From: an uncultured Granulosicoccaceae bacterium
GTDB lineage: Bacteria; Pseudomonadota; Gammaproteobacteria; Granulosicoccales; Granulosicoccaceae
DNA length: 45,178 bases
NCBI GenBank assembly: GCA_937951345.1
Contig: CALFCF010000099.1
Location: 1 to 45,178 of the forward strand
Reading direction: 5' to 3'
Position numbers and translations under genes: made by a program. Positions 32,429 through 42,868 of this stretch are shown in pieces (within the stretch, counting starts at the first letter, position 1; each line of letters begins with the position of its first letter). Under the pieces are notes generated by a model that saw only the letters and a list, made by a program, of their open reading frames with translations, made no database searches and had not been told where the DNA came from.

Positions 32429-33346
32429 ATGTCCTATTCTGTTCAAAATTTCGGCACAATGCTGTTGGATCACGTGCGTCGCGATGCGTATCTTGAAGTT
32501 ATTCGTCGTCTCGCACCGGGTTGCCGTGTACTGGACTTGGGTGCTGGCACCGGTTTTTTTTCCATTGCTGCACTAAATGCTGGAGCTGATCATGTGGTTG
32601 CAGTGGATGTTAACTCGGCGGTTAATCAGCTGACTCGAGTGCTTAAAACCACACCATATGAAGCCAGGTGTGAGGTTCTGAACGCCGATATTCGAGAGAT
32701 CGAGTTAGAGCCGTTCGATCTGATTATCGCTGACCTGCGCGGTCCTACACCCTTCTACGGTGACGGCCTTGAGGTAATGTCGTATGCCCGTCAAAACCTA
32801 TTGACAGAGAAGGGAAAACTAATTCCGGAAGAAGATCAGCTAATGGCATGCGTTGTTTCACTGCCTAATTGGTACCGGGATGTAAGTGAACCCTGGTCGC
32901 TGCCCGGTGCTGATTGGTCGAGTTATCGGGACTCTGTTTTATCCACACCAACCAGTCTTTCAACTGTTGATAAAAGTACGATGTTCTCTAAACCTGTGTG
33001 TTGGCACCGGATTGATTACTCCGATGCTGGCCACATAGAAAAACGTAAGTTCGGCTCTCAGAATACGATAACAATTTCGCAATCCGGGCTCGTTCACGGT
33101 GTGTTATGTTGGTTTGAAACCGTGTTGACAGAGGATATCGGTTATCGTACCGAACCGTCCAATCACAAGCCCACATACGGTCGATTACTGCTCCCGTTTC
33201 TAACGCCTGTAGCCGTGTCAGCAGGCCAGGAATGTGATTTGACCGTACAGTGCTATCGATTGAAGAAAAACTGGACCTGGGATTGGGGTATTCATGGTGA
33301 TGCCCTAATGGCTAGAAATAGCTCTGTGGGTGTGGGATTTTTGTAA
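32429..33346 (+). CDS. PRMT-like SAM-dependent methyltransferase
   Basis: 305 residues. The class I methyltransferase fold is clear: motif I VLDLGAGTGFFSIAALNAGA (residues 34-53), the acidic end of beta-2 (VVAVDVN, D60), post-I CEVLNADIREIE, and FDLIIADLRGPTPFYGDGLE. The following LLTEKGKLIPEEDQLM resembles protein arginine methyltransferases, which have a beta-barrel after this point. The usual double-E loop (SEWMG) is replaced by ADLRG, so the first catalytic Glu is missing and target choice may differ. It starts 55 bases after the membrane gene and ends about 125 bases before the lasso promoter. Substrate unknown; peptide methylation is possible. Confidence 0.8.
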   Translation: MSYSVQNFGTMLLDHVRRDAYLEVIRRLAPGCRVLDLGAGTGFFSIAALNAGADHVVAVDVNSAVNQLTRVLKTTPYEARCEVLNADIREIELEPFDLIIADLRGPTPFYGDGLEVMSYARQNLLTEKGKLIPEEDQLMACVVSLPNWYRDVSEPWSLPGADWSSYRDSVLSTPTSLSTVDKSTMFSKPVCWHRIDYSDAGHIEKRKFGSQNTITISQSGLVHGVLCWFETVLTEDIGYRTEPSNHKPTYGRLLLPFLTPVAVSAGQECDLTVQCYRLKKNWTWDWGIHGDALMARNSSVGVGFL

Positions 33347-33500: not shown

Positions 33501-33586
33501 AGTCAGCTTATTCAATTGCTTAGCAAAACGGGGTGTGTTGGGCTAAACATTGAGTGTGTTGTCACATTGATTGTGGAGTGTTCATT

Positions 33587-33862
33587 ATGGAAAATACAAT
33601 ATATACACAGCCCGACAATGTGATATTAAGGGATGTAGGCGACGAAACGTTGCTGCTTAATATAGACACTGAGCAATATTTTGGACTGAATTCCGTCGGC
33701 ACGGAAATGTACCGACGACTTGTATCTGGTGAAACATTAGCGTCCACACTGGAAGCTCTCGCCAGTATCTATTCTGTCTCTATGGAAGTACTCGAAGAAG
33801 ACTGTGCCGAATTGGTAGGAAATTTACTGAATAATCAGTTAATCGCAGTCCGCGAAGCGTGA
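33587..33862 (+). CDS. PqqD-like leader-peptide-binding protein (lasso B1)
   Basis: 91 residues from ATG 33587, with GTGGAG 9-10 bases upstream; the frame also opens back to 33554 without support. Winged-helix PqqD/RRE fold: VILRDVGDETLLLNIDTEQY, FGLNSVGTEMYRRLVSGETL, then ALASIYSVSMEVLEEDCAEL and a final LLNNQLIAV. This is the standard PqqD-type pattern ('lnt..y..LN..G...w..l'). In lasso clusters the separate B1 protein binds the precursor leader (through Tyr, Pro and Leu of the YxxPxL motif) and hands it to peptidase B2. It overlaps the B2 gene by 4 bases. Its split from B2 is typical of paeninodin-like and actinobacterial-type clusters, less so of classical proteobacterial ones. Confidence 0.93.
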   Translation: MENTIYTQPDNVILRDVGDETLLLNIDTEQYFGLNSVGTEMYRRLVSGETLASTLEALASIYSVSMEVLEEDCAELVGNLLNNQLIAVREA

Positions 33863-34356
33863 CAATTTCTTATCCGCGAATTTCTCGAGCATTAAAACTG
33901 ACGGGTAAGTCGCCGGCAGTTGCGGTAATGGGCGTCGTTTGTATTCCACTATTGCACTTTGCCGTAAAAGCAAAGTTACTGAAATCAAGACCAACTGCTT
34001 TGTGGCTTGCCAGCAAAGCAGGTGCTGAGTATCGCCGGCCGGCCGGTACCGAACCGCAAGACATTGAGCGCGCATTTGATTATGCCGGTGCACTGCATTT
34101 AGGCGTTCGTTTATGGCGCTTAAACGCGAATTCGTGCATAGCGCGTTCCATCATTCTATGGGTAATTTGCGTTCGACAATCTATTCCAGCAAAAGTTATT
34201 GTCGGTGCACCAACCGGAACTACAAAAGATTTTCACGCCTGGGTTGAAGTGCACGACACGCCTGTTAACGACAGCATGGATGTGCGCAGTCGTTACGGGG
34301 CGTTCGATTCCGCTTATTTAGAATTCCCTTTATCTGTCGCTGGTGCTGACTGTTGA
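33859..34356 (+). CDS. Lasso peptide B2 leader peptidase (transglutaminase-like)
   Basis: 165 residues from GTG 33859, overlapping the B1 stop (GTGA). A transglutaminase-like cysteine peptidase that removes the leader after the residue behind the conserved Thr. The catalytic Cys is C93 in LNANSCIARSIILW and the His is H126 in TKDFHAWVEVHD, followed by an Asp candidate in PVND (D138). An N-terminal helical part (AVMGVVCIPLLHFAVKAKLL) resembles the membrane-like or substrate-gripping region seen in B2 proteins. The length is normal for B2 (about 140-170). The four-base overlaps on both sides mean B1, B2 and the kinase are co-translated. Confidence 0.92.
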   Translation: MTISYPRISRALKLTGKSPAVAVMGVVCIPLLHFAVKAKLLKSRPTALWLASKAGAEYRRPAGTEPQDIERAFDYAGALHLGVRLWRLNANSCIARSIILWVICVRQSIPAKVIVGAPTGTTKDFHAWVEVHDTPVNDSMDVRSRYGAFDSAYLEFPLSVAGADC

Positions 34357-35258
34357 ACAACCAACTCGTCAGGGTCTACGGATCTGTTGCCAGTATACCG
34401 CGTGAAATTTGTCTGCCGCTTGAAGTAATTTCCGAGTGTGTCCTACCTGACGTTATCGCATCAATTGGTGCGCTGGATAACCCGGAAACTGCATTCGAGC
34501 TGGATGCTGCAGTGGATCTACATATTTCCGGAAATTGTGTATCCGTGTACCCCAAAATGGAGCTTGGGCCCAGAGGCTATGAGCATTACATAATCGATCA
34601 TGCCGTACCCCACGCGCTTACTCACATAGGGAAATATGTTTTGCATGCTGCAGCATTGTCCAAAGGTGGTAAAGGTGTCCTGTTGTTGGGTGCGTCCGGA
34701 GCAGGGAAGTCATCGCTGTGTGCGCATCTTATTAAAAACGGCTGGCAGGCTCTGGGCGACGATGCCGTTGGGCTGGCGGTTGAGGGTAATACCTGCGTTA
34801 TGCACCCCGCCTATCCGGGCCTTCGACTGCATCCGGGCGATACGACGACGGAACTCCTGGCTGCAAGCACGGAAAGCGATGGAAACACTGAGGCTGTGGA
34901 TGGAAATCTATTCGCCGGCGTTGCCGGGCTTGTTGCTGAATATGGCTACAAGACTCGCGTAAATATTACCGAAACGTCGTTTCAATCAAGCTCGCACGCA
35001 GCCCAGGTTGTGATTTTGCTCGGCCAGGATGAGAATTTTCGGGCAACTCGGATTGGTAGTGTCGAACTATGCGCTGCACTAACCGGTTCGATGTTTTTTC
35101 CTGCGGCTGAAAACATAAAAGCCATTGAGCGACTGCAACTGGTCAGCTCCTTTGCAACCAAGTTGTCAGGCCACAAAATTGATTACCCAAGAACCCTTCA
35201 AGGCCTCGATGAGATGAGCCAGTGGCTTGAAACCAACATCAGCAGCTCAGGGGTCTAA
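34353..35258 (+). CDS. HPr-kinase-like protein of the lasso locus
   Basis: 301 residues from TTG 34353, overlapping the B2 stop. The P-loop VLLLGASGAGKSSLCAHLIK (GASGAGKS at 113-120) and the WQALGDDAVG segment (DD at about 136-137) are the HPr kinase/phosphorylase features. The N-terminal 100 residues are variable. The same protein family in paeninodin-like lasso clusters is known to phosphorylate the C-terminal Ser of the precursor. Here neither precursor ends in Ser, so the target is unclear. A role on an internal Ser (S5 in both cores) or a different phosphorylated group is inference. Cytosolic. Confidence 0.88.
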   Translation: MNNQLVRVYGSVASIPREICLPLEVISECVLPDVIASIGALDNPETAFELDAAVDLHISGNCVSVYPKMELGPRGYEHYIIDHAVPHALTHIGKYVLHAAALSKGGKGVLLLGASGAGKSSLCAHLIKNGWQALGDDAVGLAVEGNTCVMHPAYPGLRLHPGDTTTELLAASTESDGNTEAVDGNLFAGVAGLVAEYGYKTRVNITETSFQSSSHAAQVVILLGQDENFRATRIGSVELCAALTGSMFFPAAENIKAIERLQLVSSFATKLSGHKIDYPRTLQGLDEMSQWLETNISSSGV

Positions 35259-35282: not shown

Positions 35283-37028
35283 ATGGCTGCATTTTCACTA
35301 TTGTACAAATATGATGGCGCACCCGCGGACGATCACGAACGCGCCTGTATGCTGCGTGCGTTTAAATATCACCACGGCGAGGTTGAAGTACTATCCCCGA
35401 TACCCGGTCTGACCTTATTTTTGCATTCGTGTGCGTGGGAACCCAAGCCTCATTTACTGGAGCGTGGTGATTTAAACGGTGTGGCCGTTGGCAGGGGCAA
35501 ATTGCGGCAGGTAAGCAGTAAAAATGGCGCGCCTGAAGTCGAGGATATTTTACTGGAAGGCACAGCGACCGGGGTCATCTGGTCGCGTGAGTCGCTCGCC
35601 TTGCTCACTGACCGGTGTTCGCAAAGAGCTGTTTGGTACCTTGATGGGGGCAGATTTTTACTCGCCGGTAGTGAACCGCGATTAATACTTGGGCATCCCG
35701 CGGTAAGTGCTGAACCCGATGAACAAACTCTTGCCGAGCGCGTTTTAAACAAACCTTCAACACCGTGCCGCTCTATTTACAAAAATATTCATAGCTTGCC
35801 GCCCGGTGGTCGCCTTGTTTCAAAGGCAGGGGTAAATAAACGCGATGCCTGGCATGAGTTTCAATATAAGGTCGATAAAAGAAAATCGTTTACAGATTGG
35901 TGTGAAGAAATTGAACACTGTACGAGCGACATTATGCAAGAGCATATTCGTCTGCTGGACGGTGATAATTTCTCACTGTCACTCAGTGGCGGGCTCGACT
36001 CCTCTGTTCTAGCCGGTTTCATCAAGTTTTACGCTGCGGATAAAAATTGTCTGGCGAGTACGTTTGGTTATCCGGGGATGCCTTGCGATGAATCTCATTT
36101 TCAGGATGCAGTACTAGAGGGTGGCTCATTCCAACGACAGGTATTCGATCATCGTTTGCTGGACGTAGACGCCGACATTCTCGAACCGCTGAAACGCTCC
36201 CGTGTACCCCCGTACCGACCGGAGCCATTGGCAAGAGATACCTATGATTGGAGCGCAAAAAACGGTTTCCACTATCGGTTTATGGGAATGGGTGGTGACG
36301 AGTTCTTCGCTCCACACGGTGAGACATTACTTGACCTACTGTTTTCCGGTCAGTGGGGGCGAATAGGTACATCCATTAAACAGCAGGGTGTAGCGCCAGC
36401 GTTAAAACGATGTATTGAGCACGTTCCTTTACCGCTTGTTCAGTTACGGCGTCGCTCGAATTTGCCAGGCTGGATAGGGCCTCGACTCAGGCATGATTTT
36501 AAAGCACATCGCCTGTTTGATTTTCAACGCAGGCTACCCGGGTATAAAGCAAAAGCAGACGAACGGGCATACCAGTTGTTTAATACAGGTTCGTTGGCCA
36601 TTAATCTGGAATCTTTTGAATTTCTCTCGGCTGATCTGCAACAAGAGTTTATAAATCCATTTTATGATTATCGGTTGGCAGAAAAGCTCTTGTGTGTACC
36701 GGAATACCGCCTTGTTTCTGCCAGTGATATCCGGCATCTACAGCGCACCAGCTACGCCGGTTTTCTGCCCGATTTAGTCAGATCGAGACGGGGCAAAGTG
36801 CACTTTGATTACCCGTTGGTTGCCCACCTCAAGGAACCCTGGTTCGAGTCATTTTTTCAGTCTACCCGGCTGCAGAGAGAAGGCTGGATCGATGGCGATA
36901 GCATTCGGTCTATCTTTACCAGTGTGACAAGGCATCCAGGATGGCCCGAATCAGTCGACACGCTTCCGCCGCATGCGACTATACTCTGGAATCTGATTGG
37001 TTTAGAGCTGTGGCTTAATTCACTTTAA
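35283..37028 (+). CDS. Lasso peptide macrolactam synthetase (asparagine-synthetase-like, C protein)
   Basis: 581 residues starting at ATG 35283, 24 bases after the kinase stop. ATP-dependent enzyme that activates the Asp or Glu side chain of the core and joins it to the Gly1 amino group. The PP-loop ATP site is SLSLSGGLDSSVLAGF (about 231-246). The N-terminal glutaminase-like half lacks the Cys at position 2 (MAAFSL), so it cannot use glutamine, as expected for lasso cyclases. The synthetase half has FMGMGGDEFFAPHGET and the usual helical C-terminus. The C-terminal codons and stop lie inside a 10-bp tandem repeat. It is followed by the first precursor gene, about 160 bases on. Confidence 0.95.
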   Translation: MAAFSLLYKYDGAPADDHERACMLRAFKYHHGEVEVLSPIPGLTLFLHSCAWEPKPHLLERGDLNGVAVGRGKLRQVSSKNGAPEVEDILLEGTATGVIWSRESLALLTDRCSQRAVWYLDGGRFLLAGSEPRLILGHPAVSAEPDEQTLAERVLNKPSTPCRSIYKNIHSLPPGGRLVSKAGVNKRDAWHEFQYKVDKRKSFTDWCEEIEHCTSDIMQEHIRLLDGDNFSLSLSGGLDSSVLAGFIKFYAADKNCLASTFGYPGMPCDESHFQDAVLEGGSFQRQVFDHRLLDVDADILEPLKRSRVPPYRPEPLARDTYDWSAKNGFHYRFMGMGGDEFFAPHGETLLDLLFSGQWGRIGTSIKQQGVAPALKRCIEHVPLPLVQLRRRSNLPGWIGPRLRHDFKAHRLFDFQRRLPGYKAKADERAYQLFNTGSLAINLESFEFLSADLQQEFINPFYDYRLAEKLLCVPEYRLVSASDIRHLQRTSYAGFLPDLVRSRRGKVHFDYPLVAHLKEPWFESFFQSTRLQREGWIDGDSIRSIFTSVTRHPGWPESVDTLPPHATILWNLIGLELWLNSL

Positions 37029-37187: not shown

Positions 37188-37382
37188 ATGCAACAACCAG
37201 TTACTACTAAGATTTCAGGCCGCGAATACAGCAAGCCTTTGCTAGCCGCCCACGGCAGTTTTGCCGAACTTACTCAGGGAATGGCCGGGTCGCAAAATGA
37301 TGGACAAGGCGGTGGCGCAGGTATGGCGTGTGATGTTCTGGTTCCTAATGATTCTGGTCCTGTAAACGACGGTTGCGGATAA
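37188..37382 (+). CDS. Lasso peptide precursor A1 (64 residues)
   Basis: ATG 37188 follows AAAAGGAG closely; a TTG six bases earlier is less likely. The leader, residues 1-30, contains the lasso signature REYSKPLLAAHGSFAELTQ: Tyr14, Pro17, Leu19, Gly23 and Thr29. Thr29 is at -2 and the core starts with Gly31. The core is 34 residues: ring segment GMAGSQND with Gly1 and Asp8, then a Gly-rich hinge (GQGGGAGMAC), then a tail with Pro and Asp and two Cys at core positions 18 and 33, which could form a disulfide. It lies just downstream of the cyclase gene in the same direction. Predicted product: an 8-residue Gly1-Asp8 lasso. Alternative ring acids are too far along (Asp19) for a normal lasso. 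Confidence 0.88.
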   Translation: MQQPVTTKISGREYSKPLLAAHGSFAELTQGMAGSQNDGQGGGAGMACDVLVPNDSGPVNDGCG

Positions 37383-37690: not shown

Positions 37691-39388
37691 TTACAGTTGA
37701 ATTGTTCTGTCTGCCAGACCCAGACTGGCTGGCCGGTGTGTTATGAGGAGAACAGTTGCTCGTTGCAACAAGTCGGTACATGCTTCGACGTACCGTTTTT
37801 CGGATTCCGGGTCAAACATGGAGGTTGCTTCATCGAGGATTAAAATGCTCGGATTTTTAAGCACTGCCCTAGCCAACGCAATTTTTTGTCGCTGGCCTCC
37901 GGAGAGCATCACTCCTTGATCACCAATCAACGTATCCAGCCCGTCATTCAGTTCAGCTATCAGGTTTTCAGCTCCAATGCTGTTCAGTATTGATTCCAGG
38001 CGCGCATCATCAATTGGCTCTCTCTCGGCTAGAGTTCCGTATTGCGAGTCTTCCAGTATCAGGTTGTTTCTGACAGTGTTATTGAATAGAAGTGCATCCT
38101 GTGCGACATAGCCAATAGACCGCCTCAGGGTTGAAAGCGCGATGTTCTCGATAGGCTGGTTGTCGACTCTGATTTGACCACTTGTCACCGGCATTAATCC
38201 CAGGCAAAGCTTGGCTATTGTGCTTTTTCCTGATCCGTTTCTGCCAACAATGGCAATGGTCTCACCTGAATTAATAGTGAGATTAAATTCGCTTAAAACC
38301 GGGTGCGCAGCGTCGTAGGCAAAATCGACATTGTGGAATTCAATACGGGAGAGGCGGCTGCTTGCCCGGGAGCTATCGACTTCCGATACCGCATTTTTAT
38401 AGTTGGTCTGATTATCAGCGGGTTGCGCAAAGTAATGAGCTTCGTTCTTTTCGTCAAAAAATTCTTCCAGTCTTTCCGCTGCTGATAATGCATTTTGCAT
38501 ACGGCCAAACAATGAAGCCATTGTGCTCATTGGGCTAACCATAAGCAGGCCGTATAACAGCAGGCTGGTGAGTTCCGCAATACTCATAAGGTTTCGGGAT
38601 AATGTACTGGAAAGCACCCACAAAGTACCTATAACAACAATACTGCCTAAGAGCTTTATCGCCGGCTGAATACGTAACTGTCGTGCATTAAACTGTTGCC
38701 GTACTCGAATGTATTCGTCGGTTAATTGATTCAGATTGTTTTGGTTTTTTTGTTCGAGAACGAAGGTTTTGATCGTGGGTAGTAATGCAATCGATTCAGT
38801 CAGATAGCCTGAGATTCTGGCATATTTTTCTATCATTTTTTTTGATAGTCCACGAACACTTCTTCCTAGAAATTTTGTTAAAAAGACGAATGTTGTACAA
38901 AGTAAAACTGCAGCTACCCCAATGCGTGGACTAATAGTGAAAATTAGTACGAGTGCACCAATGAATGTAACGGTCTGCGGTAGGATGGCCGTTAACGCAT
39001 TGGTGGTGAATTGCGTGATTATTTGACAATCATTCTGGAAGAGCGCCAGAATTTCTCCTTTCTTACGCGATTCGCTATAGCTTAATGGCAAATTAAGCAG
39101 GGATTTGTATGTACGCGTTAATAGCCCGGTCCACATGAGGTCGGATGTTTTTATCAGCCAAAGCTGGGATACATACGTGACCACAGCTTGAACAACCAGT
39201 ATCGCCATCCAGAATGGAAACAACTGGTTTATAGTTATTGCTGCGTTCTCAGCATCCAGCAGATTGGCGGCCAGTTGCCCGGCTAACCAGGGGTTGATTA
39301 AAAATACGACGCTGGCCACGCATGACAGTAGTGTTGCGACAACGAGCTGAGGTATATAAGCCTGTGCTGAGTTGAGGATTAGATTCAA
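37691..39388 (-). CDS. ABC exporter, probably for the lasso peptides
   Basis: 565 residues. Half-transporter of MsbA/McjD type: six membrane segments in residues 1-300 (for example LVVATLLSCVASVVFLINPW, ILVVQAVVTYVSQLWL, FIGALVLIFTISP), then an ATPase domain with Walker A GRNGSGKST (382-390), signature LSGGQ (495-499) and Walker B ILILDE (514-519), with an H-loop ITHRP. The start is uncertain: TTG 39388 without a visible ribosome site is the best in-frame choice because no ATG lies nearby upstream. It is divergent from the cupin gene and convergent with precursor A1. Half-transporters of this kind export lasso peptides and give immunity. Confidence 0.93.
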   Translation of the reverse strand: MNLILNSAQAYIPQLVVATLLSCVASVVFLINPWLAGQLAANLLDAENAAITINQLFPFWMAILVVQAVVTYVSQLWLIKTSDLMWTGLLTRTYKSLLNLPLSYSESRKKGEILALFQNDCQIITQFTTNALTAILPQTVTFIGALVLIFTISPRIGVAAVLLCTTFVFLTKFLGRSVRGLSKKMIEKYARISGYLTESIALLPTIKTFVLEQKNQNNLNQLTDEYIRVRQQFNARQLRIQPAIKLLGSIVVIGTLWVLSSTLSRNLMSIAELTSLLLYGLLMVSPMSTMASLFGRMQNALSAAERLEEFFDEKNEAHYFAQPADNQTNYKNAVSEVDSSRASSRLSRIEFHNVDFAYDAAHPVLSEFNLTINSGETIAIVGRNGSGKSTIAKLCLGLMPVTSGQIRVDNQPIENIALSTLRRSIGYVAQDALLFNNTVRNNLILEDSQYGTLAEREPIDDARLESILNSIGAENLIAELNDGLDTLIGDQGVMLSGGQRQKIALARAVLKNPSILILDEATSMFDPESEKRYVEACTDLLQRATVLLITHRPASLGLADRTIQL

Positions 39389-41231: not shown

Positions 41232-41262
41232 TAAAAGGCGTATTCAGATACTGAATACGCCT
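41232..41262 (-). terminator. Intrinsic terminator of precursor A2
   Basis: On the minus strand AGGCGTATTCAG, loop TAT and CTGAATACGCCT form a perfect 12-bp stem (41236-41262), followed by TTTAT. It lies 19 bases after the stop of the small minus-strand gene and supports that gene being transcribed. Confidence 0.85.
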
Positions 41263-41281: not shown

Positions 41282-41440
41282 TTAATTCCCTCTAGTATCT
41301 GGTTGTCGGGTGTTTGACCCTGTGTCTGGTCGTGAACCACCATCGCCTTTAGTTAGATCTTCGAAGTTTCCAAGATTACTAAGTTGGGGTTTTTCGTATT
41401 TGCGAGGTTTTGACAACTGTTTTTCGTTTTCGTCTTTCAT
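41282..41440 (-). CDS. Lasso peptide precursor A2 (52 residues)
   Basis: Minus-strand frame from ATG 41440 to TAA 41282-41284. The leader contains RKYEKPQLSNLGNFEDLTK, aligning position by position with precursor A1: Tyr, Lys-Pro, Leu, Gly, Phe, Leu-Thr conserved. Thr30 is at -2 and Gly32 begins the core. The core is 21 residues: ring segment GDGGSRPD with Gly1 and Asp8, then a hydrophilic tail (TGSNTRQPDTRGN) with no Cys or aromatic residue. The ribosome site is weak (GAGAG about 12 bases upstream). A 12-bp terminator follows. The leader match, terminator and location between two lasso-type genes make this a confident call despite its size. Confidence 0.88.
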   Translation of the reverse strand: MKDENEKQLSKPRKYEKPQLSNLGNFEDLTKGDGGSRPDTGSNTRQPDTRGN

Positions 41441-41473: not shown

Positions 41474-41499
41474 AACGTTTTTAATTAAGGTAAAACGTT
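41474..41499. promoter_or_regulatory. Inverted repeat between A2 and the nucleotidyltransferase
   Basis: AACGTTTT (41474-41481) and AAAACGTT (41492-41499) are exact inverted copies with a 10-base centre. They lie 34-59 bases upstream of the A2 ATG and in the divergent leader of the nucleotidyltransferase gene. The geometry fits a dimeric regulator operator. The remaining region 41500-41680 shows no other clear signal. Confidence 0.5.
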
Positions 41500-41680
41500 A
41501 CTCATCTGCTTACGTTCGCAGACGGTTTCACAAACAGCGAAAAGATATTAGATTACCGCCTCGCGCACCGTCAAGCGCTTGTCACCGGTGTTTAGGCGGA
41601 ACAAGTGTAAACTTTACAAAAAGAGTAGCTGTGTTGTTCGTCACCGACACTTGCTGATAAAGAAAAGGGAAACTGTAAAT

Positions 41681-42868
41681 TTGCGTAAACATTCATCCGG
41701 ATTTGTTGCTTCTTTTGGAAATTTGGAAGTGGACATCTGTGTGCAGGCTGTGCAGGAATTTCTCTACCGTGACGCCGAGCAGCCAGTGCAGTTGGCCGAG
41801 CACATCAACATTGACCGGTTAGCGGAACTCTCATCAGAGACGCTTGTTGATGTTGCCGGAAAGTTTGGCACTGCACCTATCACTTATGCTTTTTTACAGA
41901 AGCTTGTCACTCAAGGTGTGGTGACGCAGCAAGGTGAATTGAGAACTGCGCTGCAGAAATTGGCTCAAAGCACCATGGCGAATACGGTAATCGCCGAGCG
42001 CGCGCGTGAGCAACTCCGTGTAATCGGTGAAAAGTTAGCTGAAACCGGCATAGAGGTGTGCCTGCTCAAAGGTGCGTGCAGACTATTTGATGACCTTTGG
42101 CCGAATGCCTCGTATCGTCCGCTTGGCGATCTGGATATCCTGGTGCCTGCACAACGTGCTGACGAAGCGCAACAAGTGCTCTTGAATGCCGGATACAGTT
42201 TTTTGGGGGACAACAACCCCTTCTATAACTTGCACCATCATTTGCAGCCACTTGCTCTGCAAATTGGGCAAACTCCGTTTAGCCTGATTGTGGAAGTCCA
42301 CCGTGCGCTGGGTCAACCAAGAATTGCCCGTTTGCTGCCGGCAGGAGATGTGTTGTCGCGCGCCATCGCATTGGACAAAATCCAAAATGGATTAACGTCA
42401 CCTGCATTAGATGACCAGCTCAGGATTGCGTCACTGCATGCCAGCCATGAACTGGTTAATTCGCACCGAAATGTCATTCGGTTGCGTGATTACGTTGAGC
42501 TTGAGCTCCTTGCCCGCAAGGTGGGCCAAGGCAATGCAACTAAAGGCTATTCGATGCTCGGATCTAAGCCGGATAGCTTGTTAGGCGTATTATCGGAGCT
42601 ACAATTGTTACTGGGCCTTACCCCGTGTTACCCGGTATCGACTATACAGAACAGACGACCCCGTAATTGGATAGCGAGGAAATGGCATCAATTTATTGCC
42701 AGACAGGTTTTTGAGCGGGAGCTATCGTTGGCACCCACTGAGCGCTATGCGCTGCCGGGTTCTTTGTTAAAAAAGTCGCTGAAATTCCGGTTTGCCCTAA
42801 GCTTGGAGCTTCGCAAAATTGGTATAAAGGTTCTACCCGGTGCTACCGGAAGTGCAGTCGATCAATAG
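41681..42868 (+). CDS. Nucleotidyltransferase-family protein (lasso-associated)
   Basis: 395 residues from TTG 41681, which has AAGGGA 10 bases upstream; the frame is open back to TTG 41579 but that part is basic and unlike the rest. The NTP_transf_5-type signature is visible: EVCLLKGACRLFDDLW, then SYRPLGDLDILVPAQRADEA with the metal-binding GD-x-D motif, and VEVHRALGQP as the third acidic/His strand. Members of this family are found in paeninodin-like lasso clusters next to the HPr-kinase-like protein and may attach a nucleotide to a phosphate or hydroxyl of the peptide; the activity is not established. The C-terminal half is helical and basic. Divergent from A2. Confidence 0.85.
   Translation: MRKHSSGFVASFGNLEVDICVQAVQEFLYRDAEQPVQLAEHINIDRLAELSSETLVDVAGKFGTAPITYAFLQKLVTQGVVTQQGELRTALQKLAQSTMANTVIAERAREQLRVIGEKLAETGIEVCLLKGACRLFDDLWPNASYRPLGDLDILVPAQRADEAQQVLLNAGYSFLGDNNPFYNLHHHLQPLALQIGQTPFSLIVEVHRALGQPRIARLLPAGDVLSRAIALDKIQNGLTSPALDDQLRIASLHASHELVNSHRNVIRLRDYVELELLARKVGQGNATKGYSMLGSKPDSLLGVLSELQLLLGLTPCYPVSTIQNRRPRNWIARKWHQFIARQVFERELSLAPTERYALPGSLLKKSLKFRFALSLELRKIGIKVLPGATGSAVDQ

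Follow-up and report, generated by a model that had tools for sequence, protein, structure and literature searches.

A predicted second lasso peptide precursor with an aromatic-free core in a Granulosicoccaceae gene cluster that encodes an HPr-kinase-like protein

Introduction

It is normal for a lasso peptide cluster to encode several precursors, as exemplified by caulosegnins I–III and the caulonodins. The names of these peptides and their shared producing strains have been tabulated (PMC7549694). Of the aromatic-free peptides, caulonodin I and citrulassin A are listed as heat stable at 95 C and sphingonodin II as not heat stable (PMC7549694). In benenodin-1 from Asticcacaulis (GVGFGRPDSILTQEQAKPM), Glu14 and Gln15 flank the 8-residue ring and keep it in place (PMC13352647).

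Some lasso peptides are further modified by a kinase. As reviewed for paeninodin and pseudomycoidin, the kinase modifies the C-terminal Ser, and in pseudomycoidin phosphorylation by PsmK is followed by the addition of one or two hexoses by PsmN (PMC9266682, PMC8498205). The kinase BsfK of Bradymonas sediminis phosphorylates ring Ser3 of BsfA, the core of which has no C-terminal Ser (PMC10368454), and leader positions -17, -14, -12 and -2 are those reported to be required for recognition by B1 and for processing (PMC10368454). Here we compare with these systems a lasso cluster from an uncultured Granulosicoccaceae bacterium, located in a window of 45,178 nucleotides (the whole stretch of DNA analysed), and describe a predicted second precursor gene, A2, within it.

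Results

A complete lasso cluster with two predicted precursors

The genes around A2 form a complete lasso cluster comprising B1, B2, K, C, A1, D and N, with B1, B2 and the cyclase C all encoded near A2. The features are:

33584..33862 (+), B1, PqqD-type leader-recognition protein (RRE); PF05402 3e-11, NF033536 3e-11
33859..34356 (+), B2, leader peptidase; PF13471 (Transglut_core3) and NF033537 (lasso_biosyn_B2) above cut-off
34353..35258 (+), K, HPr-kinase-like precursor kinase; PF07475 E 2.9e-7 (just below cut-off), HprK_rel_A E 1e-10
35283..37028 (+), C, lasso cyclase (asparagine-synthetase-like); PF00733, and NF033535 E 7.7e-22, below its cut-off
37188..37382 (+), A1, predicted lasso precursor; 34-residue Gly-rich core GMAGSQNDGQGGGAGMACDVLVPNDSGPVNDGCG with two Cys in the tail
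37691..39388 (-), D, ABC exporter; PF00005 and PF00664
39646..40941 (+), uncharacterised 431-aa protein inside the cluster; no family match
41236..41262 (-), perfect 12-bp hairpin with a short U4 tail, possible A2 terminator; from repeat search, folding and terminator scan
41282..41440 (-), A2, predicted lasso precursor; 31-residue leader and 21-residue core GDGGSRPDTGSNTRQPDTRGN, ring Gly1-Asp8
41579..42868 (+), N, NTP_transf_5 protein divergent from A2; PF14907 E 8.8e-23, true start may be further in

The maturation set available to A2 is complete and single: B2 is the sole Transglut_core3 match in the genome, so A2 must share it with A1. Alignment of B2 with its homologue in a related genome (G029, described below) showed Cys93, His126 and Asp138 to be conserved.

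A1 divides into the leader MQQPVTTKISGREYSKPLLAAHGSFAELTQ and the core GMAGSQNDGQGGGAGMACDVLVPNDSGPVNDGCG, which has Cys at positions 18 and 33 in its tail, contains no aromatic residue and ends in Gly. A disulfide in this tail would place A1 in class IV, like the long-tailed pandonodin. Pandonodin is like A1 in its long tail, two Cys, length (33 residues), Gly1 and acidic residue at position 8, but A1 is Gly-rich and its disulfide is a candidate only.

Two further genes of the region were inspected. The 431-aa protein matched no family and no solved structure (PDB), none of 57 related genomes had a homologue, and its AlphaFold2 model (mean pLDDT 38) was unusable; cupin-like HxH...GAFKVVQGSSFH motifs were seen by eye in its N-terminal half. 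Directly upstream of B1, 32429-33346 (+) encodes a methyltransferase, recognised with a weak PRMT C-terminal match; its substrate might be Arg in A2, or the gene may be unrelated. At another locus (L034), a distant homologue of it (26%) adjoins an HprK-like gene in the neighbourhood of a lasso cluster, and no homologue was found in the G029 stretch.

A2 combines a lasso leader with a Gly1-Asp8 core

A sequence-only reading had proposed a 52-residue minus-strand gene at 41282-41440 as a second lasso precursor, and the gene is present there as described. Its 52 codons form an intact frame with a stop codon and translate to MKDENEKQLSKPRKYEKPQLSNLGNFEDLTKGDGGSRPDTGSNTRQPDTRGN, which at the predicted cleavage site divides into the leader MKDENEKQLSKPRKYEKPQLSNLGNFEDLTK and the core GDGGSRPDTGSNTRQPDTRGN. 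The leader carries Tyr(-17), Pro(-14) and Leu(-12), the B1-binding residues of the YxxPxL...T leader type, followed by Thr at -2 and Lys at -1 (...LT-K/G). It is a canonical lasso leader, its residues lying exactly at the -17/-14/-12/-2 positions that B1 and B2 reportedly require (PMC10368454). The identities with the A1 leader (R, Y, K, P, L, G, F, L and T) are those originally claimed, and Thr(-2), Gly1 and Asp8 are all seen in the translated sequence. The core consists of 21 residues, none of them aromatic, with the small residue Gly1 at its start and Asp8 as the predicted ring acceptor. Codon statistics gave +0.086 bits/codon for the A2 frame versus -0.079 for the overlapping plus-strand ORF.

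That the gene falls below common size cut-offs was overstated, since an existing curated HMM, NF033521, recognises it; gene callers in common use have a floor of 90 nt, which 52 codons exceed. Against this NCBI curated lasso-leader model (lasso_leader_L3, curated cut-off 19 bits), A2 scored 28.5 bits and A1 26.0 bits. When the whole 4.49-Mb genome was searched in six frames, A2 was the best match (E 1.6e-5) and A1 the second (E 4.3e-5), the next having E 0.72, and A1 and A2 alone exceeded the cut-off. Without gaps, A1 and A2 matched at 13 positions at best; 4 of 20,000 shuffles did as well. The corresponding figure for A2 and the G029 precursor was 17 identities, which none of 20,000 shuffles attained. 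The curated model score, the genome-wide E-values and the shuffle counts together indicate that the A2 match is not due to chance. With the leader model, the recognition residues, the shared ring motif and the cluster context all in its favour, A2 is very probably a genuine second lasso precursor gene. A leader-profile scan of the window found no third precursor.

A polar pair in A2 at the lock positions of benenodin-1

The A2 core is very hydrophilic, as initially noted: its GRAVY of -2.07 is slightly lower than the lowest value (-1.86) among 54 of the lasso cores tabulated in PMC12427821, which served as our comparison set. The same set does not bear out the expectation that a non-aromatic plug would be unusual, as 4 of the 54 cores (caulonodin I, citrulassin, lagmysin and sphingonodin II) contain no F/W/Y at all and 9 contain none after residue 9. 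Since caulonodin I and citrulassin A are listed as heat stable and sphingonodin II is not, the absence of aromatic residues cannot predict stability. Sphingonodin II (GMGSGSTDQNGQPKNLIGG) and caulonodin I, both listed as class II, resemble A2 in having zero aromatic residues, and sphingonodin II also in its Gly1 and Asp8; unlike A2, both are less hydrophilic and have Leu/Ile in their tails.

Among the 54 cores, benenodin-1 has the most ungapped identities to A2 (6). The two are alike in the Gly1-Asp8 ring, the Arg6-Pro7-Asp8 stretch and a tail devoid of aromatic residues, and at the lock positions, where benenodin-1 has Glu14/Gln15, A2 has the likewise polar Arg14/Gln15. Benenodin-1 differs in its hydrophobic Ile-Leu loop and ring Phe4, and neither K nor N is known from its cluster. 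Given the aromatic-free tail and the lock positions of benenodin-1, Arg14/Gln15 is the most likely lock of A2, provided that its product is threaded. Benenodin-1 thereby offers a known precedent, although the resemblance covers few residues and could be convergent.

Alternatively, A2 might be cut and cyclised to give an unthreaded or easily unthreading branched-cyclic product, Arg, Gln and Asn being incapable of locking an 8-residue ring. The lack of aromatic residues and the very low hydropathy are in keeping with such a product, as is the listing of the aromatic-free sphingonodin II as not heat stable (PMC7549694). We nevertheless consider it rather unlikely, because Glu14/Gln15 do hold the 8-residue ring of benenodin-1 (PMC13352647) and because the aromatic-free caulonodin I and citrulassin A are listed as heat stable at 95 C (PMC7549694).

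Signals around A2 and conservation in relatives

About 20 nt past the A2 stop codon, the hairpin at 41236-41262 consists of two perfect 12-bp arms and a 3-nt loop, with a folding energy of -21.5 kcal/mol (z -5.25). It is present as a single copy in the genome, which rules out a REP-type or otherwise repeated hairpin. The hairpin had been described as a perfect 12-bp terminator, and its perfection and strength hold; its U-tract, however, is UUUU only and falls short of the consensus rule of the terminator scan, so that a role as the A2 terminator is plausible, not certain. The ribosome-binding site of A2 is weak (-3.1 kcal/mol, versus -8.7 for A1), and promoter matches occurred at chance level only. 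Between the divergent A2 and N, at 41474-41499, lies a perfect 8-nt inverted repeat (AACGTTTT/AAAACGTT), a possible operator.

Of 48 Granulosicoccaceae genomes, one other, G029, has a cluster of this type, with its genes arranged B1-B2-K-C-A. Its contig matches CALGLE010000024.1, from an uncultured Granulosicoccaceae MAG (sole match of the kinase alignment; the cyclase query returned none). Its C, K and B2 are 28%, 37% and 34% identical to those of the window, and its K keeps the P-loop and DD. The G029 precursor, with leader MEVKNKSTESNKRAYEAPKLEELGSFGAMTS and core GPGGSSNDSAGGVGGGGGMAGETNPGGQ, has no aromatic residue and ends in Gln. The ring motif G-x-x-G-S-x-x-D is common to A1, A2 and the precursors of G029 and of a further genome, G175 (GFAGSVPDEQGGQTKRNPFLG, same ring pattern as A2).

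A search of relatives for such a leader beside NTP_transf_5 genes, as the sequence-only reading had suggested, was successful in part. An HprK-type cluster in G566 (L031) has a precursor (-) divergent from an NTP_transf_5 gene (+), so the position of A2 on the strand opposite N is not odd; no orthologue of A2 beside N was found in the relatives, the G029 contig stopping right after its single precursor. Neither C nor A2 had a match in the two genomes of the same genus, and a plasmid search with C gave no match. In G175, a lasso-type precursor (L019, 8841-9068, +) is followed by an HprK-like gene, and comparison of the 19.5 kb around it with the proteins of the window detected neither B1 nor B2 nor a cyclase. 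In G273, a predicted precursor beside an HprK-like gene (L020, 15281-15469, -) has Val for Thr at -2 (SELVQ/GGGGFPLD...), which recalls the Ile/Val(-2) precursors that have been described among phosphorylated lasso peptides.

The weak ribosome-binding site, the lack of a clear promoter and the failure to find an orthologue in relatives would all suit a relic or silent duplicate, in which the leader and ring positions are kept while the gene is unexpressed or its core has drifted. Such a fate is distinctly unlikely for a gene whose frame is intact with its stop codon, whose codon use is coding-like, whose recognition residues are all kept and which is followed just downstream by a strong, unique hairpin.

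Ring Ser5 as a candidate site for K

The paeninodin and pseudomycoidin clusters are like the present one in having split B1/B2, C, K, D and N, with an NTP_transf N in pseudomycoidin; their cores end in a phosphorylated Ser, whereas those of A1, A2 and G029 end in Gly, Asn and Gln, respectively. An HprK-like kinase as in paeninodin-type clusters is present here, and the C-terminal Ser of the core is absent. The BsfA/BsfK system likewise has split B1/B2, K, N and a Gly1-Asp8 ring, and its kinase targets a ring Ser although BsfA has no C-terminal Ser (PMC10368454). BsfA differs from A2 in having Ile rather than Thr at -2 and in being phosphorylated at Ser3 rather than Ser5. Ser5 of the ring is common to the A1, A2, G029 and G175 precursors and, by analogy with Ser3 of BsfA, is a candidate site for K.

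The co-occurrence of K and N in the cluster, the absence of aromatic residues from the A1, A2 and G029 cores and the phosphorylation and glycosylation of pseudomycoidin by PsmK and PsmN (PMC9266682) raise the idea that the plug of these cores is formed or reinforced not by a side chain but by a phosphate or phospho-hexose that K and N attach. We regard it as very unlikely: the known kinase sites are a C-terminal Ser or ring Ser3, not ring-flanking residues, the present cores end in Gly, Asn and Gln, and the idea is purely conjectural.

Discussion

The following route for A2, with its expression, cleavage, cyclisation, threading, plug and tailoring, is our inference. B2 would recognise Thr(-2) and cleave behind Lys(-1), and C would link Gly1 with the Asp8 side chain, yielding an 8-residue ring and a 13-residue tail. 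A Ser or Thr of the precursor is probably the target of phosphorylation by K, for which the ring Ser5 shared by A1, A2 and their relatives is available, N may extend the phosphate with a hexose, and D would export the product. That A2 is instead a chance ORF resembling a leader has a negligible probability, for although it is short and overlaps an opposite-strand ORF, its genome-wide E of 1.6e-5, its location inside a lasso cluster and the shuffle tests (0 of 20,000 reaching the G029 match) rule this out.

As a genuine precursor, A2 is a further member of a well-known kind, and its missing aromatic plug has precedents among studied lasso peptides; it does not alter the understanding of lasso peptide synthesis and locking. 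A broader and decidedly doubtful proposal is that a Granulosicoccaceae lineage makes aromatic-free, very polar or Gly-rich lasso peptides (A1, A2 and that of G029) in which K acts on Ser5 rather than on a C-terminal Ser, N adds a sugar there and the modification becomes part of the lock. The cluster offers a test of the site used by an HprK-like kinase where the core has no C-terminal Ser, and it contributes a lasso cluster with two precursors, whose cores are very polar in one case and long, Gly-rich and Cys-containing in the other, from a gammaproteobacterial family that has received little study.
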